From Desulfosudis oleivorans (lineage in GTDB: Bacteria; Desulfobacterota; Desulfobacteria; Desulfobacterales; SURF-7), in NCBI GenBank assembly GCA_020723305.1, contig DYJC01000019.1, positions 1 to 64,000 on the forward strand: a stretch of DNA of 64,000 nt, given 5' to 3'. The notes under the pieces were generated by a model that saw only the letters and a program-made list of their open reading frames with translations, was not told the DNA's origin and did no database searches. This document shows positions 20,507 to 35,946 of this stretch, one piece after another. The first letter of the stretch is position 1. Every line of letters begins with the position of its first letter. The translations under genes and the position numbers were made by a program.

Positions 20507-21409
20507 ATGCTTGATTTTTTACCCGGACGTCTGCGCGGAATATTGTCTTTTTTTCTGATTTCACTCAACACCATCATTATTTTTATTCCCATCATGCTGG
20601 TGGCTATTTTAAAAATGGCTATCCCTGTTTCAAGGGTCCAAGATTTTTTTTCAAAAATTCTGATCTCCATTGCCTCCAGATGGGTGGAATGCAATGCCGG
20701 TATTTTCCGGCTGATGAACAAAATTGAATGGAAAGTGAGCCAAACCGGCGACCTGAAAAACAATGAATGGTGCTTGATCATCTCAAACCATCAATCCTGG
20801 GTCGACATTTTTGTCTTACAGACGATCCTCCTCCATAAGGTTCCCTATATCAAATTCTTTCTGAAAAAAGAGTTGATCTGGGTTCCCCTGATGGGACTTG
20901 CCTGGTGGGCTCTGGATTTTCCGTTTATGAAACGCTACTCCCAAAGTTTTTTAAAAAAGAACCCCCATTTAAAAGGAAAAGATGTTGAGATCACAAGAAA
21001 GGCATGTGAAAAATTCAAGGTCAAACCCATATCCATTATGAATTTTATGGAAGGTACCCGGTTTACGGAAAAGAAACATCAGCAGCAGCAATCCCCATTT
21101 ACCCACCTCCTCCGGCCCAAAGCCGGGGGAATTGCCTTTGTCCTCGGCGCCATGGGAGATTATCTGAACAGCCTCCTCAATATTACCATTGCCTATCCGC
21201 AGGGTATCGGCAGCTTCTGGGACTTCCTCTGCGGAAGGATCACTGAAATCAGGGTTCATATAGAAAAAATGACGATACCGAAAGAGATTTTAGGAGATTA
21301 CGACAACAATCCGGAGTTCCGGATTTTTTTTCAAAACTGGATCAACACCCTGTGGGCGGAAAAAGATCTCCGGATCAAATACCTGCTTGAAAACAACACT
21401 ACAATTTAA
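20507..21409 (+). CDS. Lysophospholipid acyltransferase family protein (YihG/PlsC-like)
   Basis: A 300-residue protein with an N-terminal membrane helix (residues 10-38), the acyltransferase motif NHQSWVD (94-100) and the acceptor motif EGTRF (182-186). These match the 1-acyl-glycerol-3-phosphate acyltransferase branch typified by YihG. It transfers an acyl chain to a lysolipid at the inner membrane. Its TAA stop and the TAA stop of the opposite-strand FMN protein overlap inside TTTAAA at 21405-21410. Confidence 0.88.
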   Translation: MLDFLPGRLRGILSFFLISLNTIIIFIPIMLVAILKMAIPVSRVQDFFSKILISIASRWVECNAGIFRLMNKIEWKVSQTGDLKNNEWCLIISNHQSWVDIFVLQTILLHKVPYIKFFLKKELIWVPLMGLAWWALDFPFMKRYSQSFLKKNPHLKGKDVEITRKACEKFKVKPISIMNFMEGTRFTEKKHQQQQSPFTHLLRPKAGGIAFVLGAMGDYLNSLLNITIAYPQGIGSFWDFLCGRITEIRVHIEKMTIPKEILGDYDNNPEFRIFFQNWINTLWAEKDLRIKYLLENNTTI

Positions 21410-22974
21410 ATGTCATTCGTAAAATCCAGATGAATGAGGAGGTCTGAACGGCCGACCAGCTCCCGGACACTGCGCATGCCGAATCTTTTCAGAATCTGAA
21501 TCAGGTCTTTCCGCCATGCGCTATAGAGATTAACGAGTCGCTGGGTGCCCCATTCAATATCGATTTGAGTTACCAGACCTGGATCAGTAGTCGCAATACC
21601 ACGCGGGCAGCCCCGCCCTGCAGAGCACCGGGAGCACCGGACGCAGCCAAGGGCGATCATTTCCGCAGTTCCGATGACAACACCATCCGCACCCAAGGCA
21701 ATGGCCTTGGCAATATCATGAGCTGTGCGGATTCCGCCGCTTGCGATCAGCACCACTTTCTCCCTGGCGCCTTCATCCACCAGAAATTTATGGACTTTTG
21801 CAATTGCATACTCAATCGGCATGGCGATATTTTTTTTGGCAATGTCCGGAGCTGCACCGGTTCCACCATATCCGCCATCCAGGTGTATGATATGTGTTCC
21901 TGCTGAGTAGCTTCCCACAGCCACCATATCCACATCCGTAGGTGTGGACACCTTGGTGGACAGCAGCGCCCGCCTGTTGATATGCTTGATCCAGTCCAGG
22001 TGTTTCATATGGTCTTCAATGGAATACACGCTATGGAATGGAAAAGGAGAAAACAACGATATGCCGACCACTGCTTCCCGTATTTTGGCAACCGCCGGTG
22101 TATTTTTATCACCCAGCAGATGTCCGCCAAGGCCTGGTTTGGCACCCTGTGCATACTTGAATTCAATAATACGAACACGCTGAATGGTTTCTTCGCGGAC
22201 ACCGAAAAGACCGGTGGCCACCTGCGTAATCATATGGTCATCATACGGTCTCATCCTTTCCATATATCCGCCTTCCCCGGAACAGGAGAAGGTGTTGAAT
22301 GCAGTTGCAGCGCGCACTTTGGAGAGTTGTGTGACATTACTCACCGATCCGAAAGACATACCGCCGCCATACCAGGGAACATCGATCTGAATCTGAGGCC
22401 TGCCGTCATCCCTGTGGTTTAATAAAATACTGGTATCAATCTCATCGTCTTGCAATTCAACCGGCGGTGTTTCCGGAAATTTAAACCGGATACGGTCAAA
22501 CCCGCCTCCGGATTCGCCGACCTGATAATTGTATTCATACTCCGGTGACGGCGGTTCTCCGTTTTCCGCCATTCGCCATGTGGCCAAAAGCATATCTGCC
22601 GGCCACCTGTAATCTCCCAAAGCTTCTATCATTGGATTTTTAACGATTTTCAAAGCCTTTTGAGGGCACTGGGTGATACAATAGTGATCCGTTTTTTCAC
22701 AAGCCTCCCCCGTACACAGATAGCTCTTGGGCATGGCAAAATACCGATAGCCGGGTTTCAGCACATGAACATGATACGGACACAACTCTGCGCATTTGCC
22801 GCATCGAATGCAATCATCACTTCGATAGATGATATATTTTGCAATTTCATTTCGATAACGCGGCAAAGCCGGTTTGATCTCACGACTGATCTGAACCTGC
22901 GGTACACGTGTTTTCAGCGTTTTTTCCGGCAGGATCTCCCTAAGCTCTTTTTCTTGAACCGAAAAGCGTTCCAA
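21406..22974 (-). CDS. Glutamate-synthase-like FMN/Fe-S protein (catalytic paralogue)
   Basis: Start is a TTG at 22974 with AGGAGG six bases before it, giving 522 residues; a GTG at 23043 would add 23 residues without support. It has an N-terminal ferredoxin region (Cys55/58/61/65 plus another Cys group near 87-107), then the glutamate synthase FMN barrel: MSFGSVS, GAKPGLGGHLLGDKN, SPFPFHSVYSIED, DGGYGGTGAAP, and the terminal Cys triad CVRCSRCSAGRGCPRG. These are the GltB catalytic-domain motifs without the amidotransferase and GXGXG parts, which are in the first gene of the operon. It is the last gene of the run and overlaps the preceding gene by 35 bp. Confidence 0.88.
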   Translation of the reverse strand: MERFSVQEKELREILPEKTLKTRVPQVQISREIKPALPRYRNEIAKYIIYRSDDCIRCGKCAELCPYHVHVLKPGYRYFAMPKSYLCTGEACEKTDHYCITQCPQKALKIVKNPMIEALGDYRWPADMLLATWRMAENGEPPSPEYEYNYQVGESGGGFDRIRFKFPETPPVELQDDEIDTSILLNHRDDGRPQIQIDVPWYGGGMSFGSVSNVTQLSKVRAATAFNTFSCSGEGGYMERMRPYDDHMITQVATGLFGVREETIQRVRIIEFKYAQGAKPGLGGHLLGDKNTPAVAKIREAVVGISLFSPFPFHSVYSIEDHMKHLDWIKHINRRALLSTKVSTPTDVDMVAVGSYSAGTHIIHLDGGYGGTGAAPDIAKKNIAMPIEYAIAKVHKFLVDEGAREKVVLIASGGIRTAHDIAKAIALGADGVVIGTAEMIALGCVRCSRCSAGRGCPRGIATTDPGLVTQIDIEWGTQRLVNLYSAWRKDLIQILKRFGMRSVRELVGRSDLLIHLDFTNDI

Positions 22975-24361
22975 ATATCTCCTCCTCAAGCTGTTCAAAA
23001 AACATTGCCCGTCCGACATCTCCGCGAAGACGGCGGGCTTCACGCATTCCCATTGCGCCCATCAATTCGATTAACTGCAAGTGCCAGGCAGCGATCAGAT
23101 TCCGCATCCGTCCGACACCATACGCAAAATTTATATCTTCAAGTCTGGCAGGGCAGATCAGGCCGGGCCTGCAAGAGCTGCAAAGACGGCATTCGAGTGC
23201 GATCATCAGCGGCAGATAGATGGATATCAAATCCGCGCCGCAGAGCAATCCCTTGGCCATATGCTCCGGCAGGGCAAAACCGCCGGAGGCGATAATGGTC
23301 ACTTCATCCCGGATGCCTTCTTTAATAAGCGTTGTATGTATCTCCCGTATCATGTCCTTTATGAATCCGGGTGATTCCACTCCGATCTCATCACCATTGA
23401 AATCAGCAACCGTATGAATCACCTCCACTCCGGATCTCGACAGTTCAACCGTACGGTCAACCCCTTTCGAATCCAGGGCGACTCTGACGGAGATGATCAG
23501 ACCGGGATATTTTTCTTTTAATTCAGCGATGCGGGAAAGCACGTCATCACCATCGGGGATTTCCACCAGCCTTGTTTTCCGTACAACATCAAAAGGTATC
23601 TCCGGCGCATCCGGATTCAGGTGAAAAGCAATATGCGGCAGATAGGCTTCGATACTTTTCATCTGATTGTCATTCAGGGCAGATGGCCATTTGGCGGAAT
23701 CCACAATCGCAATCAGATCGGTCAATTTAACCGCTTCAACAATATAAGACTCCAGTTGAGGAAGTGTAAACTCCGCAGGATTCATATCCACAATCATCGG
23801 CATGGGTATATCTATGACCGCCGGCAATCCGGATATTTTCTGATCTGAATCGAATGTAAGGTAGGATGGTTTTTTCCCGATATCAACGGAAGTACTGATA
23901 TACTCTCTTCCATGGATTCCATCCCGTGTAGGCCGGACAATTTCAGACATGTCCGTCCACATGGAATCAAATCCATGCCCCGCAAATCTCCCCCTGTATC
24001 CTGCTCCGGAAACCGGCACAGCGGCTGTTTCGGCCTGTTGCCAGGTGATATGAATGATTTCCGGGGTCCAGTAATGATTTCCCAGCTTCTTGTATTCTGA
24101 ATTGATGGTCAGGCACAGAAGATCTTTGGTGCAGTTCTGAACGCAGGAGAAACAGCCCATGCATTCAAAAAACAGAAAATCGGAATGTTTAAGATTCCGG
24201 ATATACGCGGCTTCCTGCCGATGGCGATCATAGACACAGGCTTTTTTCACACAGTTATGGCACCGGGCGCAGTCTTCACGCCAGTCTACAATACCGTGTT
24301 TCCCGATACGCGGCAACCGGGGAGGAACAGGGGTTGTTTTGATATGATATTTTTCAGGCAT
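22940..24361 (-). CDS. Degenerate glutamate-synthase-like Fe-S paralogue
   Basis: A 473-residue protein with the same overall plan as its neighbour: two N-terminal ferredoxin-type clusters (CARCHNC...C and CMGCFSCVQNC), an alpha/beta barrel-like region, and a C-terminal Cys group (CRLCSSCRPGLICPAR) following IIASGGFALPEHMAKGLLCGAD. The family motifs MSFG, GAKPG, SPPPHHDIYS-like and DGGTGASP-like are missing. It keeps the scaffold and iron-sulfur clusters but probably not glutamate synthase catalysis, so a structural or electron-transfer partner of the catalytic paralogue is inferred. It lies 13 bp after metF. Confidence 0.75.
   Translation of the reverse strand: MPEKYHIKTTPVPPRLPRIGKHGIVDWREDCARCHNCVKKACVYDRHRQEAAYIRNLKHSDFLFFECMGCFSCVQNCTKDLLCLTINSEYKKLGNHYWTPEIIHITWQQAETAAVPVSGAGYRGRFAGHGFDSMWTDMSEIVRPTRDGIHGREYISTSVDIGKKPSYLTFDSDQKISGLPAVIDIPMPMIVDMNPAEFTLPQLESYIVEAVKLTDLIAIVDSAKWPSALNDNQMKSIEAYLPHIAFHLNPDAPEIPFDVVRKTRLVEIPDGDDVLSRIAELKEKYPGLIISVRVALDSKGVDRTVELSRSGVEVIHTVADFNGDEIGVESPGFIKDMIREIHTTLIKEGIRDEVTIIASGGFALPEHMAKGLLCGADLISIYLPLMIALECRLCSSCRPGLICPARLEDINFAYGVGRMRNLIAAWHLQLIELMGAMGMREARRLRGDVGRAMFFEQLEEEIFGTLFGSRKRA
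22981..22986 (-). promoter_or_regulatory. Strong ribosome-binding site fixing a TTG start
   Basis: AGGAGG on the minus strand lies inside the end of the preceding gene, six bases before TTG at 22974. No ATG or GTG lies at a comparable distance, so TTG is the likely start. Confidence 0.8.
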
Positions 24362-24374
24362 TTTTTTCTCTATT

Positions 24375-25280
24375 TTATTTTTCTAATGAAGCAATAATTT
24401 CAGATACACGTTTCTCCTTACCTCCGGAAAGAAGGTGGATTCCTTTCACACCATCCATCTTCTTCATTTTCCGGATGGTCTCAAGGCAGATATTCAGACC
24501 CTCTTTTTTTTGAGCCCCCTTGTCTCCTGCTTTCTTCAGCCGTTCAATAATACTGTCCGGTATGGACAGATCCATATAGTGATCTCTTAAGGTTTCTGCT
24601 TCCTGATACCCTGAGAGCGGCATGACGCCTGCCAGGATGGCTGTGTTTTCGGTTATCTTCTGATTGCGGGCCTGTTCGAGCCATCTTTCAAATGCTTCCA
24701 CATCAAACACCGCCTGGGTCTGGATAAATTCAGCGCCTGCTTCAACTTTTTTTGCCAGTCTCAGGATGTTCAGCTCCAGCGGTTTCATGTCCGGGCCGGC
24801 TACCGCGCCGATCAGAACCGGAAAATCGCCTTTTATTGCTGTTCCATCCAGAAGAACATGTTGATCCCGCATCTGTTTTACAGCGGCAATGAGCTGGATG
24901 GAATCGATATCATACACATTTGCAGATTCAGGACTTCCGGTAAGTGCCTGATGGTGGCCGGAAAGACACAGTACATTCCGGATACCCAGGGCGCATGCTC
25001 CCAGAAGATCCGACTGGATAGCGATGCGGTTCCTGTCGCGGGTGACAATCTGGTACACCGGTTCCATCCCGGCCTTGACCAGCACCAGAGATCCGGCAAG
25101 GCTGGAGAGTAAAGGGCCGTGAGGATTATCCGCCACATTCACAGCAGTGATACCGTTTCCAAAAGAAGAGATGGCTGCTTCGATTTCCAAAATAGCGGTA
25201 CTTGCCTGTGGAAGAAGCTCTGCGGTGACGATGAAGTCTCCTGCGGCTATCTTTTTTGCTAGCCGGCTGTCATGTTTCAT
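24375..25280 (-). CDS. metF: Methylenetetrahydrofolate reductase
   Basis: A 301-residue MetF TIM barrel. The N-terminal glutamate (FIVTAELLPQ) that positions the folate, the NVADNPHGP segment and the GAEFIQTQAVFDVEAF segment are present. The flavin-site motif reads CLSGHH where acetogens usually have C-L-T-G-D-H. It interconverts methylene-THF and methyl-THF. It sits next to metV, mvhD and hdrABC homologues, the set seen for the MetFV-HdrABC-MvhD complex of acetogens, rather than with methionine genes. Confidence 0.92.
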   Translation of the reverse strand: MKHDSRLAKKIAAGDFIVTAELLPQASTAILEIEAAISSFGNGITAVNVADNPHGPLLSSLAGSLVLVKAGMEPVYQIVTRDRNRIAIQSDLLGACALGIRNVLCLSGHHQALTGSPESANVYDIDSIQLIAAVKQMRDQHVLLDGTAIKGDFPVLIGAVAGPDMKPLELNILRLAKKVEAGAEFIQTQAVFDVEAFERWLEQARNQKITENTAILAGVMPLSGYQEAETLRDHYMDLSIPDSIIERLKKAGDKGAQKKEGLNICLETIRKMKKMDGVKGIHLLSGGKEKRVSEIIASLEK

Positions 25281-25283
25281 ATA

Positions 25284-25685
25284 TTACTCCTGTGATCTTT
25301 CTGTATCCTGTAAAATATTATCTTTCAGTTTCTCTATTGCTGCTTTGATCTGCCCGACATCTTCTTCATTTTTCCGGACGACGATCATACGTCCCTTGCC
25401 AAGGCCCGTCTCTTCCAGCATGGAATCAACTGCCATCGCTCTTTTCCGTGCCCGAAGGTTTCCTTCCAGAAATTTACACTCATCCTGCCCGCATGTAACC
25501 AGCAAAACACCATCCGAGCCTTTCTCAAATGCTTTCAGCAGATAAAGCAAATTCACTTTCCCGGAGCATGGCAAGCTGACGGTTTGAATCTGATGATCTC
25601 CCTGGCCATTTCCGTTGATTTCAATCTGTTTCCGGAGCAGGTCGGTATCCAGGCAGTTTGAGCAGTAAAATATGTGTATCTTCAT
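25284..25685 (-). CDS. MvhD/FlpD-like Fe-S electron-transfer subunit (second copy)
   Basis: ATG at 25685 is used (a TTG lies two codons upstream); 133 residues. The motif order matches MvhD: an N-terminal C-x-x-C (FYCSNC), then PCSGKVNLLYLLKAFEKGSDGVLLVTCGQDECKFLEGN with the C..C/C pattern that binds a [2Fe-2S] cluster in MvhD. It would pass electrons between HdrA and MetFV or another partner. It is placed between metV and metF and has cysteine, not selenocysteine, in the first motif. Confidence 0.8.
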   Translation of the reverse strand: MKIHIFYCSNCLDTDLLRKQIEINGNGQGDHQIQTVSLPCSGKVNLLYLLKAFEKGSDGVLLVTCGQDECKFLEGNLRARKRAMAVDSMLEETGLGKGRMIVVRKNEEDVGQIKAAIEKLKDNILQDTERSQE

Positions 25686-25703
25686 GATCAATATCCAGGT
25701 TGT

Positions 25704-26372
25704 TTAAATTCTGTGATCCTCACGGACAATAACCCGACATCCCCCGCCAAGGCTTGGTGCCCAATTTTTGGGTGGTACAATCCTTTTGAGTCTGTCCAAT
25801 TGGCCGATGCTTTTCAATCGTTGATAAATAAGCTGCCATCCACATGGCCGGTCCGGGCGAACCTCGCAGCGATCTTCCCGGGAACCCCCGCAGGGGCCGT
25901 TCAGCATATGTTTGGCGCATCGCGTAACCGGGCAAATCCCCCCATACTGGTCCAATACGCAGGCCCCGCAGGCAGCACACTTCTCCGCCCAGATGCCTCT
26001 CTCTTCAAGAATGCCGATAAACGACGTATTGAGTCCGGCATAGACGGGTTTTGCAGGATACCGTTCGGCAATGGCCTGAACACCGGCTCCACACCCCAGG
26101 GAAAGAACAACATCGTTTCTTTCAACCGCCTTTGCAGCTTCTTCTATGAATACATTGTCACACTGCCTTTCAATTGTGAGTTCTTCGATTTCAAACGAAA
26201 GATTCTTCGCTCTTGAGGCAATTCGCAGTGCGGAACTGATAATGCTGACCTCTCGTTCTCCTCCGGCAAGACATACGGTTACGCATGTGCCGCATCCCAA
26301 TACCAGAATTTTTTTATGGCCTTCAAGGATATCGACAAGTTCCGGTATGGTTTTTCTTTCTGCTACGATCAT
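25704..26372 (-). CDS. metV: MetV, zinc/Fe-S partner of methylenetetrahydrofolate reductase
   Basis: A 222-residue protein of the MTHFR C-terminal family. The N-terminal half has a Rossmann-like pattern (KILVLGCGTCVTVCLAGGE), and the C-terminal half has a Cys-rich zinc or cluster domain (CAACGACVLDQYGGICPVTRC then GPCGG). MetV pairs with MetF in acetogens and is needed for electron input there. It starts in an ATGA overlap with the selenoprotein-type mvhD gene, which implies tight co-expression. Confidence 0.88.
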   Translation of the reverse strand: MIVAERKTIPELVDILEGHKKILVLGCGTCVTVCLAGGEREVSIISSALRIASRAKNLSFEIEELTIERQCDNVFIEEAAKAVERNDVVLSLGCGAGVQAIAERYPAKPVYAGLNTSFIGILEERGIWAEKCAACGACVLDQYGGICPVTRCAKHMLNGPCGGSREDRCEVRPDRPCGWQLIYQRLKSIGQLDRLKRIVPPKNWAPSLGGGCRVIVREDHRI

Positions 26373-26842
26373 GGTTGGATCTCCTGTTCGATCATTGCAT
26401 CCGGTACGGATGGGGATGCATCGGCCTGATGTAAAGGATTGGGGCCGAGACTACGGATGGTTTCGATCATATTTTTGATGTGCTCGACAAAATGACGAGC
26501 GTCTGCTGCACCGATATTGATCATCCGCAAACGCTCCATTTCAAAACCGGCCTCGGACAGTATCTGACGGGTGTAGTTCACCCGGCGTTTGGCCATTAAA
26601 TTACCTTCAATAAAATGGCAGCTTCCTTCTTCACATCCGGCAACAAGGACGCCGTCCGCACCGTTTTCAAATGCTTTCATGAAATATTCAACTTCCAGCT
26701 TGCCGGTACAGGGCGTGCGGATAATCCGGATATTCGTCGGGTATTGAAGTCGCATGGAACCTGACAGGTCCGCAGAGGAATACGCTCAGTAATGGCAGCA
26801 AAAGGCGATTATTTTGGGTTCAAACGGGTTTTGGTTCATCAT
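26369..26842 (-). CDS. MvhD-like subunit with in-frame UGA, predicted selenoprotein
   Basis: Translation from ATG at 26842 gives MMNQNPFEPKIIAFCCHY, then UGA at 26788-26786, then AYSSADLSGSMRLQYPTNIRIIR and so on, 157 residues to the stop at 26369. Normal MvhD proteins read F-C-C-N-W-C-S-Y-A-G-A-D-L here, so the UGA falls exactly on a conserved cysteine and the homology continues on both sides. The rest has TPCTGKLEVEYFMKAFENGADGVLVAGCEEGSCHFIEGN. VhuD of Methanococcus, a member of this family, is a known selenoprotein. An internal ATG at 26755 would give a truncated protein. It lies 13 bp after hdrA. Confidence 0.85.
26756..26771 (-). promoter_or_regulatory. Candidate bacterial SECIS hairpin after UGA
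   Basis: Starting 14 bases after the UGA, GGACCU pairs with AGG(U)UCC, with one bulged U, around the loop GUC. A short stem with G and U in the apical loop at this distance is the expected form of a bacterial SECIS read by SelB. The fold is hand-drawn and unverified. Confidence 0.55.
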
Positions 26843-26855
26843 ATTTCTCTTTTAC

Positions 26856-29800
26856 CTAATTGGGTAACTCTTTATTTTTGTGAAACAGTTCATCCAGCAT
26901 GGCGATAAAATGTTTTGTCTCAAAATGGTTGAGCTGGATTGCACGGGCAGGACACTCTGATGCGCAGATCCCGCATCCCATGCATTTGGCGGCTGCAATC
27001 TCGCCTTTATGATCTTTATTCATAAATGGTGCACCATAGGGGCACGAATGAACACAGGTCATACATGAAATACACTTGCTCTGGTCAACTCTTGAAACCT
27101 GGGCGCCCACCTCAAGATGCGTCTTGGAAAGCACCGTAGCTGCTCGCGCCGCCGCAGCTCGGGCCTGGGAGATGTTTTCGTCCATAAACTTGGGTGAGTG
27201 GGCCAGACCGCAGAGGAATATCCCCTCGTTTGCAAAATCAACCGGCCGGAGTTTCATATGTGCTTCCACATAAAAACCATTGGCATTGAGCGGAACCTTG
27301 AGCATATTTGAAAGCAAGCGGTTGCCTGAAAGTGGTGTGATGCCGGTACTCAACACCACCTGGTCCGTTTCGATTTCAATGGTTTCCGGAAAATCCGGGC
27401 TGTCAATGGTGACCAGAAGTTGGGTGCCGTTTGTCACAACCGGCGGTTTTTCCTTGTCATAGCGGATAAACACCACTCCGGCCTTGCGGGCTTCTTTGTA
27501 ATATGTTTCACGGAATCCATAGGTGCGGATATCCCGATACAGGACAAAGATATTGGTGTCCGGGTTCTGTTTTTTTATGGAAAGGGCGTTTTTGATTGCC
27601 ATGGAGCAGCAGAGACGGCTACAGTATTCCCGTTCATCATTGCGCGAGCCCACACATTGAATCATGATAATGTTCTGGGCGGATGTATCGAACGTATGAT
27701 CATAGAGGCGTTTTTCAAGCACTGTCTGGGTGATGACATGATCCGATTCTGCGGCAAGAAATTCGGTTGTTCCTGCCGGGTCCGCACCGGTGGCGACAAT
27801 AACGGCTCCGCAAGGCACATCCATACTGTTACCGTTCCGGGCAAGAGTCATCCTGAATTTTCCCACATGGCCGGCAATACCGGTGACCTCTGTTTCCAGA
27901 TGAAGCTTGACCTGTGGATGGTTTTTCACTTGTTGGATCAGATCGTTTGTAAAGCCTGCGATGTCATGATGTTCCAGCGTACCGTGAATGGTGTGCAGAT
28001 GGCCGCCAAGCTGTCCGGTCTTTTCAACAAGATGCACCTTGAATCCCTGGTTGGCCAGTGACAGCGCCGCAGTCATTCCGCTGAGTCCGCCACCGATCAC
28101 AAGACCCTCCTGGTTTATGGCAAGGGATTCTCCGATCTGCGGCTTGAGCAGACGCGCCCTCGCCAGGGACATGCGTACCAGTTCAATCGCTTTTTCCGTT
28201 GCGGCTTCCGGCTCGGAAGCATGAACCCAGGAACACTGATCCCGGATATTGGCCAGGTCAAAGAGATATGGATTCAACCCGGCTTCACGCAACGTTTCCC
28301 GGAACAGGGGTTCGTGAGTCCGGGGTGTGCAGGAGGCCACTACAATGCGGTTGAGCCGGTGTTGTATGATGGCTTCCTTGACCTCGGACAGGCTGGCATC
28401 GGAACAGGCATACATGGTATGGGTTGCCAGAACCACATCAGGATCATTGGAAACAGCGCTGGTCACTTTTTCCACATCCACCGTGGAGGCGATGTTAATG
28501 CCGCAGTGGCATACAAACACTCCGATTCTGGGCATTTCATCCGTTATGTCATGCTCTTCCGGATATTCTCTTTTGGTCACCAGCTTATTCCGGACCTCGG
28601 ACAGTTGTTCCATGGACATGGAGGCAGCAGCACTCGCCTGGGTAACGGTTTCCGGGATATCTTTTGGTTCCTGAAATGCACCTGCCACAAATACACCGGG
28701 AAGTGATGTCTGTAATGGATTGAGACGGTCTGTTGCGCAAAATCCGAATTCATTCAGACGGATACCCAGGCGGGAGATCGTTTCAGATACGGCTGGTTTG
28801 GGGTCCAGGCCCACGGATAACACGACCATGTCAAACGCTTCTTCTTTACGTTCAAGATGATCCCCGATAAAACTCAGTATGAGATTTCTTGTTTTTGGGT
28901 TCTCTACAACCCTTGAGGGCATGCTCTTCATATAATGAATGTTGCCCTGTGCTTTTGCGCGTTCATAATACTGGTCAAAGTCTTTTCCAAATGCACGGAT
29001 ATCCATATAAAAGATGGTTACATCCAGCCCGTCCACATGTTCGCAAGCAACCATGGCCTGCTTGGTGGTTGCCATGCAGCAGATAGAGGAGCAGTATTCA
29101 TTGTGGCATTTTGAATCCCGTGAACCCACACACTGAATAAAGGCAATTCGTTTTACTTCCTTTTTGTCGGATGGCCGGATGACGTGTCCATGGTAAGGTC
29201 CTGCCGCAGAAAGCATCCGTTCAAACTGAACACTGGTGAGGACATTCGCATATCTTCCGAAACCGAATTCTCCCTTGGTTTTTGCATCAAACTCCTGGAA
29301 ACCGGGAGCCAGAATGATCGAACCGATGTCCAGGGTGATGATCTTCTCCTGCATATTATGAACAATGGCTTTCTTTTCACAGGCTTCTGCACATGCGTTG
29401 CATTCGGAGCAGAGGGCACAATTCAGGCATCTTTCACATTCTGCGAGGGCATCTTCTTCGGAAAAACAGGTTTCAATTTCGGAAAAATCTTTGATACGTT
29501 GGGCTACGGGCAGCTCTTTTGCTGTGGCACGCGGTTTTTTGATGATACCTTTTTCAGAGGGTAGAAGTTCATCGGAAATTGGGTTGAGTGTATCCTGGAA
29601 CCGGAAAATTTCTGCTTCTCCACCGCGGATATACCCGTCAATGGATTCTGCAGCCCGTTTTCCGGCTGCAACCGCCTCGATGACTGTGGCTGCACCGGTT
29701 ACAATATCTCCACCTGCAAATACGCCCGGTATTTTCGTTATACCGTTATGATCGGCTTCGATATTTCCCCATTTATTCACAGCAAGATTGGATGCGGATT

Positions 29801-31325
29801 CCGTCAAACAGGTATCCGGTTCGCTGCCTATGGCCAGAATCAATTTGTCTGCGGCCATCTCAAATTCAGAACCCTGGATGGGGATAGGTTTGCGACGACC
29901 GGAGTCATCGGGTTCCCCCAGTTTCATCCGGATACATCTGACCTTATCAAGTTTATTGTTTCCGCTACTGATACATTCAACAGGTGCTGTCAGAAATTCA
30001 AAATGAACACCTTCCTCGACAGCATGGTTGATCTCTTCCTGTATGGCAGGAAGTTCTTTTTCACTTCTGCGGTATACAATGCTGACCTTTTCCGCACCCA
30101 GACGAATGGCAGTGCAAGCTGCATCCATGGCAACATCACCACCGCCTACAACAATGACATCTCCTTTGAGTACGGGTTTTTCATTATCCGTACTTGCCTT
30201 CCGGAGAAATGCAAGACCCTGTTCCACGCCTTCAAGGGTCTCTCCTTCTATCTTAAGAGAAACACCTTTTTGAGTGCCGATACCGATAAATACAGCATCA
30301 TACTCCTTGGTTATTTTTTCAAAGGAGATATCTTTCCCGATCGTGGTGTTATAAATAAAGGTGACCCCTTTTCGCCGGATCAGTTCAACTTCATAGTCCA
30401 GTATATTGACCGGAAGACGGTATTCCGGAATTCCCCACCGGAGCATACCACCTGCTGCCGGAGATGCCTCATATACGGTTACCGCATACCCCCGATCCGC
30501 AAGGTCCTGCGCAGTTGTGAGTCCGGAAGGTCCGGCGCCGATCACCGCAACTTTTTTTGCATCCGGGGCCGGCGTTTTCTCTACCGGGAGGGAGAGTTCG
30601 CCGGATTCGATCATCTCCATCTCTTTATCCGAGGCAAACCGTTTCAGTTGGCGTATGGCCACTGCTGAATCCAGACTGCTTCTTGTACAGGTGGCTTCAC
30701 AGGGATGGGTGCATACACGGCCGCATATGGCGGACAGGGGATTTCTTTCCCGGATCATTGCAACCGCTTTGGCATACTCTTTCTTCTTGATAAGCTGGAC
30801 ATATCCCTGCACATTGATATTGGCCGGGCAGGCGATTTTACAGGGTGCATGACCGAGTTTTTGAATTCCGACAACATTGGGTATGGCCTGGGCAGAGTAT
30901 TTGGCAATGGCCTTTCTGGTTCCCAGATTCCGGTTGAACCTGTCTGGAATATCCACCGGGCAGACCCGGATGCAGTCACCGCAGTCATTACAGATTTTTT
31001 CATCGACATAACGGGGAGATTGTTTGACCGAAGCGGTGAAATGGCCTGGCTCACCCTCGATTTTCATCAGTTCTGAATGGGTCAGGATATTGATATTCAA
31101 ATTGCGGAAGCATTCCACAAGTTTGGGGGAGACAATACAGGTAGCGCAATCACCTGTGGGGAATGTTTTGTCCAGATGAGACATCATGCCGCCGATAGCG
31201 GCAGAACGTTCAACAAGATAAACCTTGAAACCGGCGTTGGCAAGATCAAGGGATGCCTGAACACCGGCAATCCCGCCGCCTTGCACCAGAACAGCACCGA
31301 TTTTTTTATTTTCCTTTGTTACCAT
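26856..31325 (-). CDS. Giant HdrA with inserted NfnB/GltD-like domain and second HdrA unit
   Basis: Start ATG 31325 (GGAAGTGGA upstream); 1489 residues. Order: an HdrA FAD domain (GGGIAG 16-21; Cys112-122 cluster); an inserted GltD/NfnB-like module (~155-570; FAD GAGPSG 263-268, NADPH-type GGGDVAMD 394-401); a seven-Cys ladder (630-649); the rest of the first HdrA; a second HdrA (VCHCG 938-942; GGGLSG 1078-1083; QCVGSR 1223-1228); and a C-terminal 2x[4Fe-4S] ferredoxin (Cys1418-1428 and 1448-1458). HdrA is the flavin-bifurcating core of HdrABC; the insert would add a pyridine-nucleotide site. Adjacent hdrB, hdrC, mvhD and metFV support a soluble electron-bifurcating assembly. Confidence 0.88.
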   Translation of the reverse strand: MVTKENKKIGAVLVQGGGIAGVQASLDLANAGFKVYLVERSAAIGGMMSHLDKTFPTGDCATCIVSPKLVECFRNLNINILTHSELMKIEGEPGHFTASVKQSPRYVDEKICNDCGDCIRVCPVDIPDRFNRNLGTRKAIAKYSAQAIPNVVGIQKLGHAPCKIACPANINVQGYVQLIKKKEYAKAVAMIRERNPLSAICGRVCTHPCEATCTRSSLDSAVAIRQLKRFASDKEMEMIESGELSLPVEKTPAPDAKKVAVIGAGPSGLTTAQDLADRGYAVTVYEASPAAGGMLRWGIPEYRLPVNILDYEVELIRRKGVTFIYNTTIGKDISFEKITKEYDAVFIGIGTQKGVSLKIEGETLEGVEQGLAFLRKASTDNEKPVLKGDVIVVGGGDVAMDAACTAIRLGAEKVSIVYRRSEKELPAIQEEINHAVEEGVHFEFLTAPVECISSGNNKLDKVRCIRMKLGEPDDSGRRKPIPIQGSEFEMAADKLILAIGSEPDTCLTESASNLAVNKWGNIEADHNGITKIPGVFAGGDIVTGAATVIEAVAAGKRAAESIDGYIRGGEAEIFRFQDTLNPISDELLPSEKGIIKKPRATAKELPVAQRIKDFSEIETCFSEEDALAECERCLNCALCSECNACAEACEKKAIVHNMQEKIITLDIGSIILAPGFQEFDAKTKGEFGFGRYANVLTSVQFERMLSAAGPYHGHVIRPSDKKEVKRIAFIQCVGSRDSKCHNEYCSSICCMATTKQAMVACEHVDGLDVTIFYMDIRAFGKDFDQYYERAKAQGNIHYMKSMPSRVVENPKTRNLILSFIGDHLERKEEAFDMVVLSVGLDPKPAVSETISRLGIRLNEFGFCATDRLNPLQTSLPGVFVAGAFQEPKDIPETVTQASAAASMSMEQLSEVRNKLVTKREYPEEHDITDEMPRIGVFVCHCGINIASTVDVEKVTSAVSNDPDVVLATHTMYACSDASLSEVKEAIIQHRLNRIVVASCTPRTHEPLFRETLREAGLNPYLFDLANIRDQCSWVHASEPEAATEKAIELVRMSLARARLLKPQIGESLAINQEGLVIGGGLSGMTAALSLANQGFKVHLVEKTGQLGGHLHTIHGTLEHHDIAGFTNDLIQQVKNHPQVKLHLETEVTGIAGHVGKFRMTLARNGNSMDVPCGAVIVATGADPAGTTEFLAAESDHVITQTVLEKRLYDHTFDTSAQNIIMIQCVGSRNDEREYCSRLCCSMAIKNALSIKKQNPDTNIFVLYRDIRTYGFRETYYKEARKAGVVFIRYDKEKPPVVTNGTQLLVTIDSPDFPETIEIETDQVVLSTGITPLSGNRLLSNMLKVPLNANGFYVEAHMKLRPVDFANEGIFLCGLAHSPKFMDENISQARAAAARAATVLSKTHLEVGAQVSRVDQSKCISCMTCVHSCPYGAPFMNKDHKGEIAAAKCMGCGICASECPARAIQLNHFETKHFIAMLDELFHKNKELPN

Positions 31326-31377
31326 AATATTCCACTTCCCTTGCAAATACTTGAAGGCTCCATACAGGTACAACCGA

Positions 31378-32253
31378 TTAAACAGTTGCGGCTATGGCCT
31401 TTACAACCGGTGATGGGGAGACCACAAGTTTTTCCAGACCCAACTCCTTCCGGGAAAGTCCTAAGCATAAACCCATCAATTGTGTAATATATAAAACCGG
31501 CATGTCATACTGTTTTCCGGTTTGCTGTTTGATATCCATCTGCCGGAGGTCGAGATTCACCTGGCATAACGGACAAGCAACTGCGATACATTCCGCTTCA
31601 ACGGCCTTAGCCATTCCAATGATGGAATCCGAAAAGCTCACCACAAGATCCGACCTTGTCGTCAGCGAAAGACTGTTTCCGCAGCATTCAACTTTATAAG
31701 GCCAGTCCAGACTCTCTCCTCCCATGGCCCTGATCAGGTTATCCATGGATTGAGGATTTTCCGGGTCATCAAAATTGGTGATTTCCTGCGGGCGAACCAG
31801 AAGACACCCATAATAGGAAGCAACCCGGAGTCCGTTCAGGGAATATGTAAATGCATTTTGTAATGACTCTTTTCCATAGTCTTCCAGAAGCACTTCCATC
31901 ATATGTTTTATTTCAACAGATCCATCATAATCCCGGCCAATCGCATTTCTGACCTTTTTACGCATTTCCGGATGATTTTTGACTTCATGGTTTGCCGTCT
32001 TTAATCTGTTGTAACAGGCTGCGCAATTTACAACTATATCCAGCCCCATGTCCTTGGCCAGTATCAGGTTTGCAGCGGAAAGCGATGCAGCCAGAACACG
32101 ATCCGTCTGATGGCCGGGTGTGGAGCCGCAACAGGACCAGCCCTTGATTTCAATAAAATCAATACCCAGGGCGCGTGCGACCGCAATGCTGGAAGAATGC
32201 TGGTCTCGGGCGGATGATTCCGCTGAACAACCGGGATAATATGCATATTTCAT
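31378..32253 (-). CDS. hdrB: HdrB-like CCG subunit
   Basis: A 291-residue protein starting MKYAYYPGCSAESSARDQHSS, a typical HdrB opening, with two CCG motifs (CCGSTPGH near residue 42 and CCGNSLSLTTRSD near 190). Each supplies cysteines for a non-cubane [4Fe-4S] cluster that in methanogens cleaves CoM-S-S-CoB. In a bacterial MetFV setting the disulfide substrate may be absent and the subunit may serve electron transfer. It starts in an ATGA overlap with hdrC. Confidence 0.88.
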   Translation of the reverse strand: MKYAYYPGCSAESSARDQHSSSIAVARALGIDFIEIKGWSCCGSTPGHQTDRVLAASLSAANLILAKDMGLDIVVNCAACYNRLKTANHEVKNHPEMRKKVRNAIGRDYDGSVEIKHMMEVLLEDYGKESLQNAFTYSLNGLRVASYYGCLLVRPQEITNFDDPENPQSMDNLIRAMGGESLDWPYKVECCGNSLSLTTRSDLVVSFSDSIIGMAKAVEAECIAVACPLCQVNLDLRQMDIKQQTGKQYDMPVLYITQLMGLCLGLSRKELGLEKLVVSPSPVVKAIAATV

Positions 32254-32819
32254 GATAAACGACCCTTGTTTTGCCTGGTTTTTCTGAAAATTCTTCTGAC
32301 TCTTTTTCGATTGGCACCCAATGACGGCAGCAATGCAATCTTTTTCTTTTGCATAATAATGGGCAGCTTATCCGTATCCCGCATATACGATGATGTGCCA
32401 ATTTTATAGGCTGTCATCAATGCAAGATCGTAGGTTCGTCCGAAAATTTCCACGGTTTTCAGAAATGCATTGTTGAATAAAGGAACATTCCCCTCCGGTA
32501 TTACCGCCTTCTTTTGAATGACGAGCGCACGCAGTGCATCCATAACCGAAACCATATCAATACCCATTGGGCATCTTGCAAAACAGGTTTCGCATGAGAC
32601 ACATGTCCAGATGAGATCGCTGGTCAAAAGCTCATCTCCGGCACCTAACTGCAGGCGTCTGATCAGTTCAGAAGGTGGTGATTGAACATGAGCTGAAACC
32701 GTGCAACCGCAAGAACATTTTTTACATTGATAACAAACAGCAAGGTCTATACCGGATATTTCTCTGATTTGATTCAGCAGGTTTTTGCCGGTTTGACCTT
32801 TTGTGATTCTGATTGTCAT
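32250..32819 (-). CDS. hdrC: HdrC-like ferredoxin subunit
   Basis: A 189-residue protein with two [4Fe-4S] motifs, CYQCKKCSCGCTV near residue 34 and CVSCETCFARCPMG near 72, in the order normal for HdrC. The first motif has C-T-V where most HdrC have C-P. It links HdrA clusters to HdrB. The gene overlaps hdrB by four bases and is separated from the amidotransferase gene upstream by 127 bp that contain a repeat. Confidence 0.87.
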   Translation of the reverse strand: MTIRITKGQTGKNLLNQIREISGIDLAVCYQCKKCSCGCTVSAHVQSPPSELIRRLQLGAGDELLTSDLIWTCVSCETCFARCPMGIDMVSVMDALRALVIQKKAVIPEGNVPLFNNAFLKTVEIFGRTYDLALMTAYKIGTSSYMRDTDKLPIIMQKKKIALLPSLGANRKRVRRIFRKTRQNKGRLS

Positions 32820-32840
32820 GGTGACCCTCTCTTACAGCTT

Positions 32841-32934
32841 GTTGGGTTTCGCCCCTTTTTCTAAACGATTTATTCCTGTAGGTTGGGTTGAGGTACGAAA
32901 CCCAACAAATCAGGGTGGGCTCAACCCAACCTAC
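32841..32934. repeat. GTAGGTTGGGTT-type nested inverted repeat inside the operon
   Basis: GTAGGTTGGGTTGAG (32878-32892) and CTCAACCCAACCTAC (32920-32934) are a perfect 15-bp inverted pair. A second pair, GTTGGGTTTCG at 32841 and CGAAACCCAAC near 32896, interleaves with it. This is a dispersed GTTGGGTTTCG/CAACCCAACCTAC palindrome seen in many bacterial genomes. Transcribed, it would form a stable hairpin between the amidotransferase gene and hdrC and could set relative expression. Confidence 0.75.
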
Positions 32935-32946
32935 TTCATTTAAAAA

Positions 32947-35595
32947 CTAATTATAAAGATCCCCCACGGTTTCCTGCTCTTTCATGGCTTTCTCTTTTTG
33001 AGCAATAGCCTTACCGACTGCCGATGGAACTACTTTCCGGTATACCTTTTCAGGTGGCTGCAATCGGCCGTCAACCGTCAATAGATCATTAACCTTTATT
33101 CCAAAAAGGCGCTCGTTTTCTTCCAGATAGGGCAAGATCAATTCCCAATCCTCCTGGGTAAGGGAAAGATACACCCCTCCATTCAGTTGCCCGTCAACGC
33201 ATACTCTGTAGGGATCACGAATAAATATCGCACCGCCTGAAGCAAGGGAAAACATGTTGCTGCCCGGGTACGGTTCAGGCAGGGGTATGATGTTCCCTTC
33301 ATCGTCAAACCGGATGGCATTCAGGATAACAAAGCCGCCGCCTTGGTTGGGATTACCGGCCATAAATGATTCCGCCAGGAAATCAAGGGAGGTTCCGTTG
33401 ATGATAACCCTTGGCTTTCCTACCGAATTAATGAGTGGCCTTCCGGCAGCATTGCCCATTATATAGACCTCTCCCCCCTTGGCTCCGTACATGAAGGTCT
33501 GCCCGGTATCACCATAAATTACCATCTTACCGCGCTTGATGATCTGACCCAGTTGATCCTGAGCATTTCCATGAACGGTTATGATCAGACCACAAATCCC
33601 GGATCCCAGGTAATCTCCTGAACTTCCATATACATCGATGGACACCTCATCCGTGCCGGGGCCTAAGCCGCATCCGATATAGCGCTGGCCTGAGCAGTCA
33701 TAACAGATAAATTTACGCCAGCCCTTCATATATGCATCGACGAGAAGTGCGGCATCACATTCATTCCCCTCCGGAGGGAAGATATCGGCGTGAATAACAA
33801 GGGTTGTTTCATCTGCCTTTGGCGCCCGCAGCAATGTACGGGTCGGATAATCAATCAACCGATGGGTAACACCGCTGCCGGTTTCCTCATCAAATTTGGG
33901 AAGACTGCCGAAAAGCATATCCAGTTCAATACGGATAATATGAAGGATATGACTCCGTTTTTTCAAACCGGTCGAGTATCTCCGGTCATTGAGCAGTGTC
34001 AGTACCTCGATCGCCGTTTTTAATATCCTGGGATTTTTCGCTGCTTCCCTGATGGCCCGGCACACGGCCAGGACATTCGCAAAACTGAAGTCCGGCATAT
34101 GATCCCGTATATAATCAAAAGCGGACTTTCCTTTACCTGCTTCCAGGAGGGCTTTTAGGTTATCTTTATGATCCGGCTGAAGCTCAGGCGATATTTCTTT
34201 TGTAAAATCAAACGGCTCGACAGGAGCCGGCATGCCTACCGGACTGCCGAATTTATCGGTACAGGTTATCCGGATTTTTCCGGAAGCATCCGGTTCAAGG
34301 TTGAATATAAACGCGCCACCATCTGTATAACTTCCACCACGGGCATTCCAGTACCGGTCCGCAACCGGGCATATCCGTTTATCATCTTTTGCCAGACTGA
34401 AAAGCGTGGCGTCAATTGCCTGTTTTTCAGAACCGATCAGGCCGACCTGTACTTCTCCATCCGACAATGCAAACACCTGGGGCCTCAGCATGGACGTATC
34501 GGTAATTCCCAGCAACTGAAGTCTGTTCTGACGGGAAATATTCCGGGCGATGATAAAAAACCACGGCCCATCTGGAGAACCATGAATATGGGTCGCCTGT
34601 ATGGCTCTGTAAATTTTTTGCTTATCCTCAGGAAGATGGTCAAAATCCAGTTCAGTGGTCGGAGCAAGCGCCTCGATAATATACTCCAGAGGATATTTAT
34701 AGGTCCGGCTGAGAAGATCAAACATCAATGCGGAAACCTCCGTATCGGTGATAAACTGCGGATAAATATGACGCTGGAGAAGATATTCTGAAACAGAATG
34801 ATAATTTGCAAAATCACCGTTATGAACAAGGGCCATATTCATGCCGGCAAATGGATGCGCGCCCCCGGGATGCCACACCCGGCCTTTTGTAGGAAACCGC
34901 TGATGTGCAATCCAAACATGAGCGGCCAGTTCTTCGATTTTGTAATATTGAACAATTGCTTCCGCAAATCCGACCACCTTTAAAATCATGATGTTTCTGC
35001 CATGGGACATGACAAAAGCTTTTTGATCGGTCAGCGATGCATAAAATTCCTGGTTCAGCTTAAAGCTGTTTTGATTGATGAACTCCTCTTCCGCTTCCTC
35101 TTTGTCGAACTTTTCCAGTCCGTTTTCTTTGATGAAAATGTCGAGAACAGCAGGTTTTACGCGGACAAAATAACGCCAGACATCCGGCGGTTTCACTTCC
35201 AGCCCCTGTACGGTTGTCCAGTCGTCAACCTTTTCAAGCTCTGCTTTTTTTTCAACATCAAAAAAGGGGGTGATATATTTTTCTTCCAGTTCAGATCGGA
35301 CGTCGGAATAGAGATATGCCACATGGATCATATAGTGATGCTCAAGGACTTCCCGGCTGACTCCGAGTTGTTCCGGGACCAAGCCGACAGCGGCGATACC
35401 GCCGCCTTTTCCATTCCCGCGATTATGCATCAATCTTGAAGGTTCGTAGATATGACGCCCGGGAACCGGCTCCGTGCAGCAAAAGCCCACAACACCGCAA
35501 CCACCTTCTTCCGCGTTTTTGGTGATGTCCGGAACATCCATTCCATCAACAAGTTTCCTTTTTGATTCCACAAATTTTTGTATTCTATCCATCAT
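32947..35595 (-). CDS. Glutamate-synthase-like amidotransferase fused to GXGXG domain
   Basis: ATG at 35595, nine bases after GGAG, is chosen over GTG at 35610; 882 residues. The class II amidotransferase begins at Cys33 (GGCGVVGF); the ~32 residues before it look like the propeptide removed in GltB, so Cys33 would become the N-terminal nucleophile. HQRFPT, HNGDFAN and DTEV motifs follow. The C-terminal ~250 residues form the GXGXG beta-helix (GCGLGPGTDE, GDTGQTFMYGAKGGEVYIMGNAAG). The FMN barrel normally between them is encoded by the last two genes of the run. It releases ammonia from glutamine for a partner. First gene after the tandem leader. Confidence 0.85.
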   Translation of the reverse strand: MMDRIQKFVESKRKLVDGMDVPDITKNAEEGGCGVVGFCCTEPVPGRHIYEPSRLMHNRGNGKGGGIAAVGLVPEQLGVSREVLEHHYMIHVAYLYSDVRSELEEKYITPFFDVEKKAELEKVDDWTTVQGLEVKPPDVWRYFVRVKPAVLDIFIKENGLEKFDKEEAEEEFINQNSFKLNQEFYASLTDQKAFVMSHGRNIMILKVVGFAEAIVQYYKIEELAAHVWIAHQRFPTKGRVWHPGGAHPFAGMNMALVHNGDFANYHSVSEYLLQRHIYPQFITDTEVSALMFDLLSRTYKYPLEYIIEALAPTTELDFDHLPEDKQKIYRAIQATHIHGSPDGPWFFIIARNISRQNRLQLLGITDTSMLRPQVFALSDGEVQVGLIGSEKQAIDATLFSLAKDDKRICPVADRYWNARGGSYTDGGAFIFNLEPDASGKIRITCTDKFGSPVGMPAPVEPFDFTKEISPELQPDHKDNLKALLEAGKGKSAFDYIRDHMPDFSFANVLAVCRAIREAAKNPRILKTAIEVLTLLNDRRYSTGLKKRSHILHIIRIELDMLFGSLPKFDEETGSGVTHRLIDYPTRTLLRAPKADETTLVIHADIFPPEGNECDAALLVDAYMKGWRKFICYDCSGQRYIGCGLGPGTDEVSIDVYGSSGDYLGSGICGLIITVHGNAQDQLGQIIKRGKMVIYGDTGQTFMYGAKGGEVYIMGNAAGRPLINSVGKPRVIINGTSLDFLAESFMAGNPNQGGGFVILNAIRFDDEGNIIPLPEPYPGSNMFSLASGGAIFIRDPYRVCVDGQLNGGVYLSLTQEDWELILPYLEENERLFGIKVNDLLTVDGRLQPPEKVYRKVVPSAVGKAIAQKEKAMKEQETVGDLYN

Positions 35596-35670
35596 TGTAA
35601 TATACTCCACATTATTTGTGGCAGAACCTGCATTCCAGTAAGCAAAACAGCCTCAATCGTCCAAAATAGC

Positions 35671-35707
35671 AAAAAAAAAGTCTATCCATAATGAATATGG
35701 GATAGAC
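35671..35707 (-). terminator. Intrinsic terminator of leader copy A
   Basis: On the minus strand GTCTATCC (35707-35700) pairs with GGATAGAC (35687-35680), followed by nine T (35679-35671). Confidence 0.85.
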
Positions 35708-35800
35708 GCATTTGTCTTTATCGCAATAATCGAACAGGTTCACACACCATTGTGTTTTACAATTCGATTCTACATTGGTTACTATCTGCTTCCAAAATAG
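35671..35800 (-). ncRNA. Leader element copy A with terminator (candidate riboswitch/attenuator)
   Basis: Second in transcription order and nearer the operon. Over ~118 bases it matches copy B closely, including non-stem bases such as ACACAATGG and GCGATAAAGACAAATGCG. A GATAG (minus strand, near 35787) can pair with CTATC in the 5' arm of the terminator, so an alternative fold could block termination. It ends in an intrinsic terminator followed by nine U, 85 nt before the gene start. I recognise no Rfam class. Confidence 0.6.
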
Positions 35801-35838
35801 AAAAAAAAACGTCTATCCATGATGATATGGGATAGACG
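35801..35838 (-). terminator. Intrinsic terminator of leader copy B
   Basis: On the minus strand CGTCTATCC (35838-35830) pairs with GGATAGACG (35818-35810), followed by nine T (35809-35801). Confidence 0.85.
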
Positions 35839-35920
35839 CATTTGTCTTTATCGCGATAATCGAACCATTAAACACTCCATTGTGTTTTACGGTTCGGTTC
35901 TAAATTTGGTCACTATCTAC
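35801..35920 (-). ncRNA. Leader element copy B with terminator (candidate riboswitch/attenuator)
   Basis: First in transcription order. Predicted parts: AGATAG (35918-35913), which can pair with CTATC of the terminator arm; a stem CGAACCGT/ATGGTTCG enclosing the hairpin AAACAC-AATGGA-GTGTTT; a conserved single-stranded AAAGACAAATGCG; then a terminator. Compared with copy A the outer stem changes from CGAACC/GGTTCG to CGAATT/TGTTCG, partly compensatory. The layout is that of a metabolite-sensing or protein-sensing attenuator. Confidence 0.6.
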
Positions 35921-35946
35921 TTTCTATTTAACAGCTTGTCAATATA

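Follow-up and report, generated by a model that had tools for sequence, protein, structure and literature searches.

The first 64,000 nucleotides of contig DYJC01000019.1 of Desulfosudis oleivorans (assembly GCA_020723305.1, forward strand; hereafter the window) belong to a 5.4-Mb genome and carry ten adjoining genes on the minus strand at 21406-35610. We consider it rather probable that these genes specify a single large glutamate synthase (GOGAT), modular in build, widespread and undescribed, with exchangeable electron inputs. Glutamate synthase is one of the main routes by which nitrogen enters biomass; its usual electron donors are ferredoxin or, by way of GltD, NAD(P)H. The family represented by the window is large, with at least 566 relatives of its amidotransferase-type protein, P1, confirmed by a P1-alignment scan of named species genomes; no separate GltD stands beside it in the examined loci, and MvhD, MetV/MetF, HdrABC or a flavin adenine dinucleotide (FAD)-linked oxidase is found instead.

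According to the open reading frame (ORF) calls, the genes are transcribed in the order P1, HdrC, HdrB, HdrA (with a GltD insert), MvhD1, MetV, MvhD2, MetF, P9 and P10. A preliminary description of the window had reported such a run and named its genes. The run was borne out, the same ten genes being complete in 17 listed loci including the window, and Pfam and NCBIfam matches concur with the names. The same description considered the combination new; no account of MetFV, MvhD or Hdr joined with GOGAT parts was found in the open-access literature as far as its texts were available, although the HdrA with a GltD insert is already known (see below).

Glutamate synthase-like modules in the run

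P1 (887 amino acids (aa); 32947-35610, minus strand as for all ten genes) combines a class-II glutamine amidotransferase domain with a GXGXG domain, corresponding to GltB domains 1 and 3. The GXGXG domain scores above its Pfam cut-off (PF01493, 48.9 bits) and the amidotransferase marginally below (26.8 versus 27 bits); a predicted structure (predicted local distance difference test, pLDDT, 83) that matches glutamate synthase, GlmS and PurF at low template modelling scores supports the amidotransferase identity. The catalytic Cys38 lies in an EGGCGV motif, behind an N-terminal stretch resembling the propeptide that is cleaved from GltB, and occurs about 28-39 residues past the chosen start in most homologue rows. 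A pattern search recovered the motif in 132 of 138 rows (duplicates included) and inspection by eye added L134, the other five rows being cut before the site. C38, R238, N264, G265 and D289 are invariant among 45 sequences and presumably form the glutamine site, their roles being assigned from GlmS and PurF.

P10 (545-aa ORF, 21406-23043) represents the GltB catalytic module carrying flavin mononucleotide (FMN) and an iron-sulfur (Fe-S) cluster, with a Glu_synthase match of 303 bits. All 12 rows compared, and at least 95% of a set of 58, keep GEGG, the lysine of AKPG, the arginine after it and GGTGA, as well as the cysteine cluster. We take the lysine and arginine to be 2-oxoglutarate binders and the cysteines to hold the Fe-S cluster. 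One position shows a Gln-to-His change, which the archaeal type of the enzyme has as well. The P10 ORF overlaps P9 by 104 bp, and its true start is uncertain.

P9 (473 aa, 22940-24361) is a paralogue of the GltB FMN barrel. The preliminary description counted two GltB-type FMN/Fe-S proteins, and both indeed belong to the Glu_synthase family, but in alignments P9 lacks the FMN/2-oxoglutarate segment, which rules it out as a second catalytic GltB. Eight N-terminal cysteines are invariant in 45 sequences, alongside the motif SEIVRPTRDGIHGREYI. In VIA-align searches with the P9 model (pLDDT 80), the seven best rows were all glutamate synthases (Z 21.1-22.7), the best match reaching Z 22.7 over 296 residues at a root-mean-square deviation of 3.4; the seventh, at 21.1, is almost level with the next row, flavocytochrome b2 (20.2), and Foldseek ranks other FMN barrels above glutamate synthase. 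Because the cysteines and the GOGAT-barrel fold are kept though the FMN/2-oxoglutarate segment is gone, P9 is probably an Fe-S relay derived from a P10-like barrel.

As in the archaeal-type (split) glutamate synthase, the FMN/Fe-S part thus sits on its own gene, and GGHL and the C-x2-C-x2-C cysteines are common to P10 and the 515-aa FMN protein of genome G056. In contrast to that type, amidotransferase and GXGXG domains are united in one protein (P1), the additional non-catalytic barrel paralogue P9 is present, and MvhD, MetV, MetF, Hdr or an FAD oxidase takes the place of a separate GltD.

A constant unit with putatively exchangeable inputs

We searched 297 genomes drawn evenly from the phylum and classed as unit-bearing those with a P9 match at E of about 1e-60 or better. 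The unit was strong in 77 of them, with P1 matches in a closely overlapping set; seven genomes with fused frames of 1,924-2,567 aa were excluded from the unit-bearing class, and G044 and G116 (79 and 62% complete), which have a strong P1 and no P9, were counted as without the unit. Sixty loci were fetched and mapped, 52 from the phylum sample and eight from relatives. P9, P10 and P1 are contiguous in this order, spanning 5.4-7.2 kb, in 50 of the 52 phylum-sample loci, 13 of these carrying a single map label for P9 and P10; the exceptions are L084, which has the window order, and L092, a 5.6-kb contig that does not include P1. P9 and P10 form a single frame in L118, L125, L128, L129, L131 and L132, and L135 and L136 have all three genes merged into a frame of about 2,530 aa. 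The fixed order and the fusions therefore argue that P9-P10-P1 is one enzyme, and the kept gene order rules out a chance neighbourhood of GOGAT parts.

Genes upstream of the unit were counted in the 46 loci of the phylum sample whose upstream flank reached 2 kb or more, five more being cut off and L084 set apart. In 40 of the 46, an mvhD gene is found no more than 3.6 kb upstream, together with metV and metF in 27, with metV in five, with metF in three and alone in five. Six loci (L098, L107, L111, L134, L135 and L136) carry an FAD-linked oxidase in place of mvhD, identified by Pfam in two cases as FAD_binding_4 plus a 4Fe-4S dicluster domain; the GOGAT linked to it is possibly fed by a hydroxyacid. 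Hdr genes are linked in only 8/46 loci. The preliminary description had held that GOGAT-like genes found equally often without hdr/metFV would speak against a joint system: hdr is indeed absent from most neighbourhoods, while mvhD with metF and/or metV accompanies the unit in 35/46. Within the sequence fetched, which includes short contigs, none of 42 Hdr-free loci showed a GltD-like gene; a locus was judged Hdr-free on its fetched contig only. The surroundings thus lack a separate GltD, and another candidate input module is there wherever the neighbourhood is visible.

A proposed precedent for an exchanged electron-input subunit is the F420-dependent glutamate synthase of methanogens and anaerobic methanotrophic (ANME) archaea, which has GltB parts and is itself putative or unproven in the available texts (PMC3087415, PMC9012536); there an FrhB-like F420 subunit would serve as the input in place of MvhD, MetV/MetF or Hdr. 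As a separate observation, a class-I glutamine amidotransferase-like gene lies directly upstream of the operon-starting mvhD in L104, L106, L117, L143 (identified by Pfam), L172 and L175.

The ten-gene form

The preliminary description suggested a genome-wide neighbourhood comparison, which finds the ten genes to recur as a set. Among the best 80 of at least 566 P1 relatives, 14 loci (L155, L158, L159, L160, L164, L165, L166, L167, L172, L175, L181, L215, L219 and L231) carry all ten genes, arranged as mvhD-metF-P9-P10-P1-hdrC-hdrB-hdrA-mvhD-metV. The window, L103 (a congener; same record as L152) and L084 contain the same genes in circular permutation, giving 17 complete loci among the matches listed, all with the same circular order, in metagenome-assembled genomes (MAGs) labelled as seven phyla. 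Labels of the 14, taken from MAG record titles and possibly wrong in places, include Limisphaerales, Phycisphaerales, Sedimentisphaerales, Ignavibacteriae, Syntrophobacterales, Armatimonadota, Myxococcales and Bryobacterales. In a FastTree phylogeny of P1, which gives local support only, the window's clade comprises 32 of 130 rows with a local support of 100. Because this clade unites rows labelled Planctomycetota, Verrucomicrobiota, Ignavibacteriota, Chloroflexota, Latescibacterota and Desulfobacterota, it suggests that the ten-gene cassette moved between phyla.

This constancy bears on the view that the run encodes a GOGAT and, independently of it, an Hdr/MetFV oxidoreductase, two enzymes which share an operon for use under nitrogen limitation and have no common electron path. 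MetF/MetV lie on the other side of P1 in L086, L186 and L189, as two independent enzymes would allow. We nevertheless regard this view as unlikely, given the circular order kept across the labelled phyla and the position of mvhD just upstream of the unit in most loci; moreover, with no GltD nearby, a stand-alone GOGAT would need MvhD/MetV, the oxidase, ferredoxin or a distant gene for its input. A single GOGAT with joined input modules remains the reading we prefer.

The Hdr part of the window consists of an HdrC-like protein (189 aa, 32250-32819) with a 4Fe-4S dicluster domain, an HdrB-like protein (291 aa, 31378-32253) with two CCG stretches, and HdrA (1505-aa ORF, 26856-31373). As first described, HdrA contains a GltD-type module: Fer4_20 at residues 175-254 and Pyr_redox_2 at 273-571 place it at about 175-582, inserted in the HdrA core, and a second HdrA-like domain follows at about 1087-1505. 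Sixteen of the 17 loci with the full set show the insert and have an HdrA of 1,474-1,506 aa; in L166, HdrA is split into two frames. Such an HdrA has been published as HdrL or type III HdrA (PMC2702500, PMC12054007). In Desulfobacterium autotrophicum, HdrL is followed by mvhD (PMC2702500); type III HdrA also occurs in methane-metabolising archaea, and use of NAD(P)H has been proposed for the GltD-bearing protein (PMC12054007). The window's HdrA shares the GltD domain with these proteins and differs in its GOGAT context, which the available texts of those papers do not describe.

Where the preliminary description spoke of MvhD, the run holds two such proteins, both with FlpD matches. MvhD2 (135 aa) is encoded at 25284-25691. 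MvhD1 (26369-26842) starts farther upstream than assumed, its frame running past an in-frame TGA (26789-26791) to about 26842. Because this TGA, in CCHY(U)AY, aligns with a cysteine of the orthologues, and because the genome has a tRNA-Sec scoring 73.3 bits, over its cut-off, MvhD1 is predicted to be a selenoprotein. MetV (222 aa, 25704-26372) matches DUF5981 and shows an NGPCGG motif in its translation.

Loss of the folate-binding residue in MetF

MetF (301 aa, 24375-25280) matches the methylenetetrahydrofolate reductase (MTHFR) family. It keeps the catalytic Glu28, which is a glutamate in 72 of 75 MetF rows including the window, and its folate-binding Asp120 is replaced by histidine. This aspartate binds the pterin, and D120N cuts the kcat of E. 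coli MTHFR to 0.3% (PMC11094777, PMC9900621). With eight records that occur under two locus names dropped, the residue is lost, to Tyr, His or Phe, in 20 of 20 MetF proteins of the window's clade and kept in 39 of 40 from loci without Hdr; other Hdr-linked loci are mixed, with Asp120 kept in 6 of 12. Owing to the loss throughout the clade, the MetF of the ten-gene form is probably an electron-carrying flavoprotein rather than a methylene-tetrahydrofolate (THF) reductase, as judged from these alignments, and the use of THF that the preliminary description envisaged is unlikely in the window. The genome (G000) has eight MTHFR-family genes, and of the seven others five keep GD at the Asp120 site; since CdhC, a marker of the Wood-Ljungdahl pathway, is also present, that pathway could function without the window's MetF. 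When matched against MetF from an operon without Hdr, two of the eight genes (L233 and L235) reach 386-418 bits.

The correspondence to the MetFV-HdrABC-MvhD complex noted in the preliminary description is confirmed, in that all six subunit types of the Moorella 6S enzyme are present and adjacent. Here they are joined to P1, P9, P10 and a second MvhD, HdrA carries the GltD insert, and MetF has lost Asp120. Enzymes of the MetFV-HdrABC-MvhD kind have been published (PMC8515935, PMC7325909, PMC6085437, PMC7483475), and HdrABC adjoins metF in Seep-SRB1g (PMC10553843). Of the MTHFR groups distinguished in PMC8515935 (MetF alone, 2S, 3S, 6S and the NuoEFG-linked X type), none is given GltB parts in its available text. 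The six shared subunits (PMC8515935) and the presence of CdhC could be taken to indicate a 6S-type methylene-THF reductase that recruited GOGAT-like flavin/Fe-S carriers, the amidotransferase being vestigial. This seems improbable to us in view of the Asp120 replacement throughout the clade, at a position where D120N is so damaging (PMC11094777), the other MTHFR-family genes with GD, the invariant glutaminase residues of P1, and the many family members that lack Hdr and MetF while P9-P10-P1 stays constant.

Relation to other glutamate synthases and nitrogen genes

The distribution of other GOGATs was compared between unit-bearing and other genomes. We counted as canonical those matching PF01645 with at least 430 bits (matches were listed down to about 313 bits, so that weaker GOGATs may be missed) and, as a second kind, relatives of an operon on contig C34 of the window's genome (L144, G000:C34:104000-121000). 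The latter encodes a 387-aa divergent amidotransferase, a 544-aa FMN protein and a 776-aa GXGXG-GltD fusion. Of the 297 phylum genomes, 80 have its FMN protein. The amidotransferase has an N-terminal Met-Cys; it matches Pfam with an E-value of 0.053 and shows nothing notable in NCBIfam, but blastp aligns it with the archaeal-type amidotransferase of G056 at an E-value of 2e-14. About 65 bp behind P10 of the congener lies a gene with 62% identity to this amidotransferase. The C34 operon is followed by ORFs of CarA and CarB size, with glnA about 11 kb off.

Another GOGAT of either kind occurs in 13 of 77 unit-bearing genomes versus 157 of 220 others (canonical alone, 10/77 versus 86/220; C34 type alone, 3/77 versus 77/220), and adding the listed proteins of 334-391 bits by hand changes this to 16/77 versus 169/220. 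Within the 14 families holding both kinds of genome, the counts are 7/41 versus 27/42; in six of these, the favourable ones (f49, f54, f64, f68, f71 and f86), they are 0/21 versus 15/15, Fisher values for such comparisons being without phylogenetic correction. The unit is complementary to the known GOGATs, which are depleted where it is present, and this fits a glutamate-synthase role. In the same line, GlnA is encoded in 18 of the 46 loci at more than 200 summed bits (20/46 with two weak matches of 50 and 60 bits), CarAB and PurF lie downstream of P1 in several loci, and, among the ten-gene loci, Amt and P-II precede the set in L172 and NrpR lies upstream of it in L167.

Several observations weigh against this assignment. 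No high-scoring GOGAT of either counted kind was found in 63 of the 220 unit-free genomes, six of which carry the fused form, so a lack of GOGAT is evidently tolerated. Three unit-bearing genomes (G086, G110 and G180) encode Glu_synthase proteins of 450-473 aa and 334-358 bits that were not counted as GOGATs. Near the FMN site, P10 reads PFHS where canonical GOGATs have PHHD. For the ten-gene form in particular, the window's genome has its second GOGAT operon on C34, and another GOGAT is present in 5 of 11 fetched Hdr-linked genomes versus 3 of 40 Hdr-free ones (Fisher 0.008, kinship ignored; compiled by hand, with the window's genome among the five). The ten-gene form may therefore not be the main glutamate supply, and the second operon and this skew fit a second role for it. 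As a further observation, L122 (G005) has, a few kb away from its ten-gene locus and on the other strand, a GltB-like ORF of 1,518 aa and a GltD-like one of 485 aa.

A glutamine-dependent reductive aminase with an acceptor other than 2-oxoglutarate, perhaps in a C1-N reaction on folate as the preliminary description also imagined, would agree with PFHS in P10, with MetF and/or MetV upstream in so many loci and with the Asp120 kept in MetF without Hdr, and is nonetheless the reading we hold least likely, because the unit is complementary to known GOGATs, the linkage to GlnA, CarAB, Amt, P-II and NrpR fits glutamate/glutamine supply, and some members lack MetF or have the FAD oxidase instead of MvhD/MetFV.

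Proposed electron path

If the run is one GOGAT, P1 would hydrolyse glutamine and the ammonia would pass to P10 through a channel, by analogy with known GOGATs. P10, with FMN, would join it to 2-oxoglutarate and reduce the product to glutamate. Electrons would reach P9/P10 by way of MvhD-type adaptors and not through a separate GltD subunit. In the window, their most likely source would be NAD(P)H at the GltD module within HdrA, from which they would travel through the HdrABC flavin/Fe-S core, MvhD1, MetV, the altered MetF, MvhD2 and P9 to P10. The preliminary description had proposed an assembly in which Hdr feeds or drains electrons for a glutamate-forming reaction. That the parts belong together stands, and electrons probably flow to the glutamate-forming site; the core, on our reading, is the GOGAT unit, with Hdr and MetFV as exchangeable electron inputs.

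HdrA might in addition bifurcate the electrons of NAD(P)H: one half would serve glutamate formation, with glutamine hydrolysis as the pull, and the other would go to ferredoxin or an HdrB substrate. The Hdr-free form, in which MetF keeps the folate residues, could be a glutamate synthase able to draw on methyl-THF. We put this forward tentatively and think it doubtful; the HdrA core and HdrBC are the only bifurcation-related parts seen in the window. If true, nitrogen assimilation would help to pay for low-potential electrons. More generally, the proposed enzyme would tie nitrogen assimilation to anaerobic energy metabolism and reuse a methylene-THF reductase as an electron carrier; clusters of metF, metV and hdrA would then not always signify the Wood-Ljungdahl pathway or a bifurcating methylene-THF reductase.

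Intergenic repeat, leader and neighbouring genes

The preliminary description noted a 127-bp gap with a repeat. This gap lies between P1 and HdrC, and a palindrome is indeed present at 32839-32934; because its 15-nt arm GTAGGTTGGGTTGAG occurs 13 times in the genome at no more than one mismatch, and not at all in a reversed control, it looks like a dispersed repeat and probably has no function for the operon. As the gap holds such a repeat, it was ruled out as an operon boundary.

Upstream of P1 lies a leader (35660-35925, minus strand) with two copies in tandem, 130 nt each, of an element that combines two hairpins with a terminator. An 82-nt part is 87% identical between the copies, each of which has small hairpins and an intrinsic terminator. 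The congener has one copy (L152), and a related element occurs in L169. Targets of ANTAR proteins have two hexaloop hairpins (A1, G4) before a terminator and lie upstream of nitrogen genes (PMC3369931). The window's leader resembles them in its two small hexaloop hairpins before a terminator and differs in being duplicated and in its second loop, where T at position 4 replaces G4, which tells against the assignment. Scanning for A1/G4 hexaloops before a T-run, by rules set after the motif was seen and with eight duplicate-locus records dropped, found such leaders upstream of 10 of 95 operons of both forms, with a total of one for 15 control loop classes; a first scan had given 9/105 with duplicates and 0 in seven control loops. 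The window's leader is a candidate for ANTAR-type attenuation, and the occurrence of such leaders, with their tie to nitrogen metabolism, is a further point in favour of a glutamate-synthase role for the unit. A known Rfam element was rejected, since no family matched at its gathering threshold and the one match lay far below its gathering score.

Beside P1 of the congener, no ORF of NAD-synthase length was seen in the fetched stretch, the gene itself not being searched for; in the window, an NAD synthase gene lies upstream of P1 on the same strand (36023-36865). Finally, a further Glu_synthase-family protein of 529-531 aa is encoded at L167:3267-4853 and L127:4780-6375, the L167 copy beside the NrpR repressor gene.

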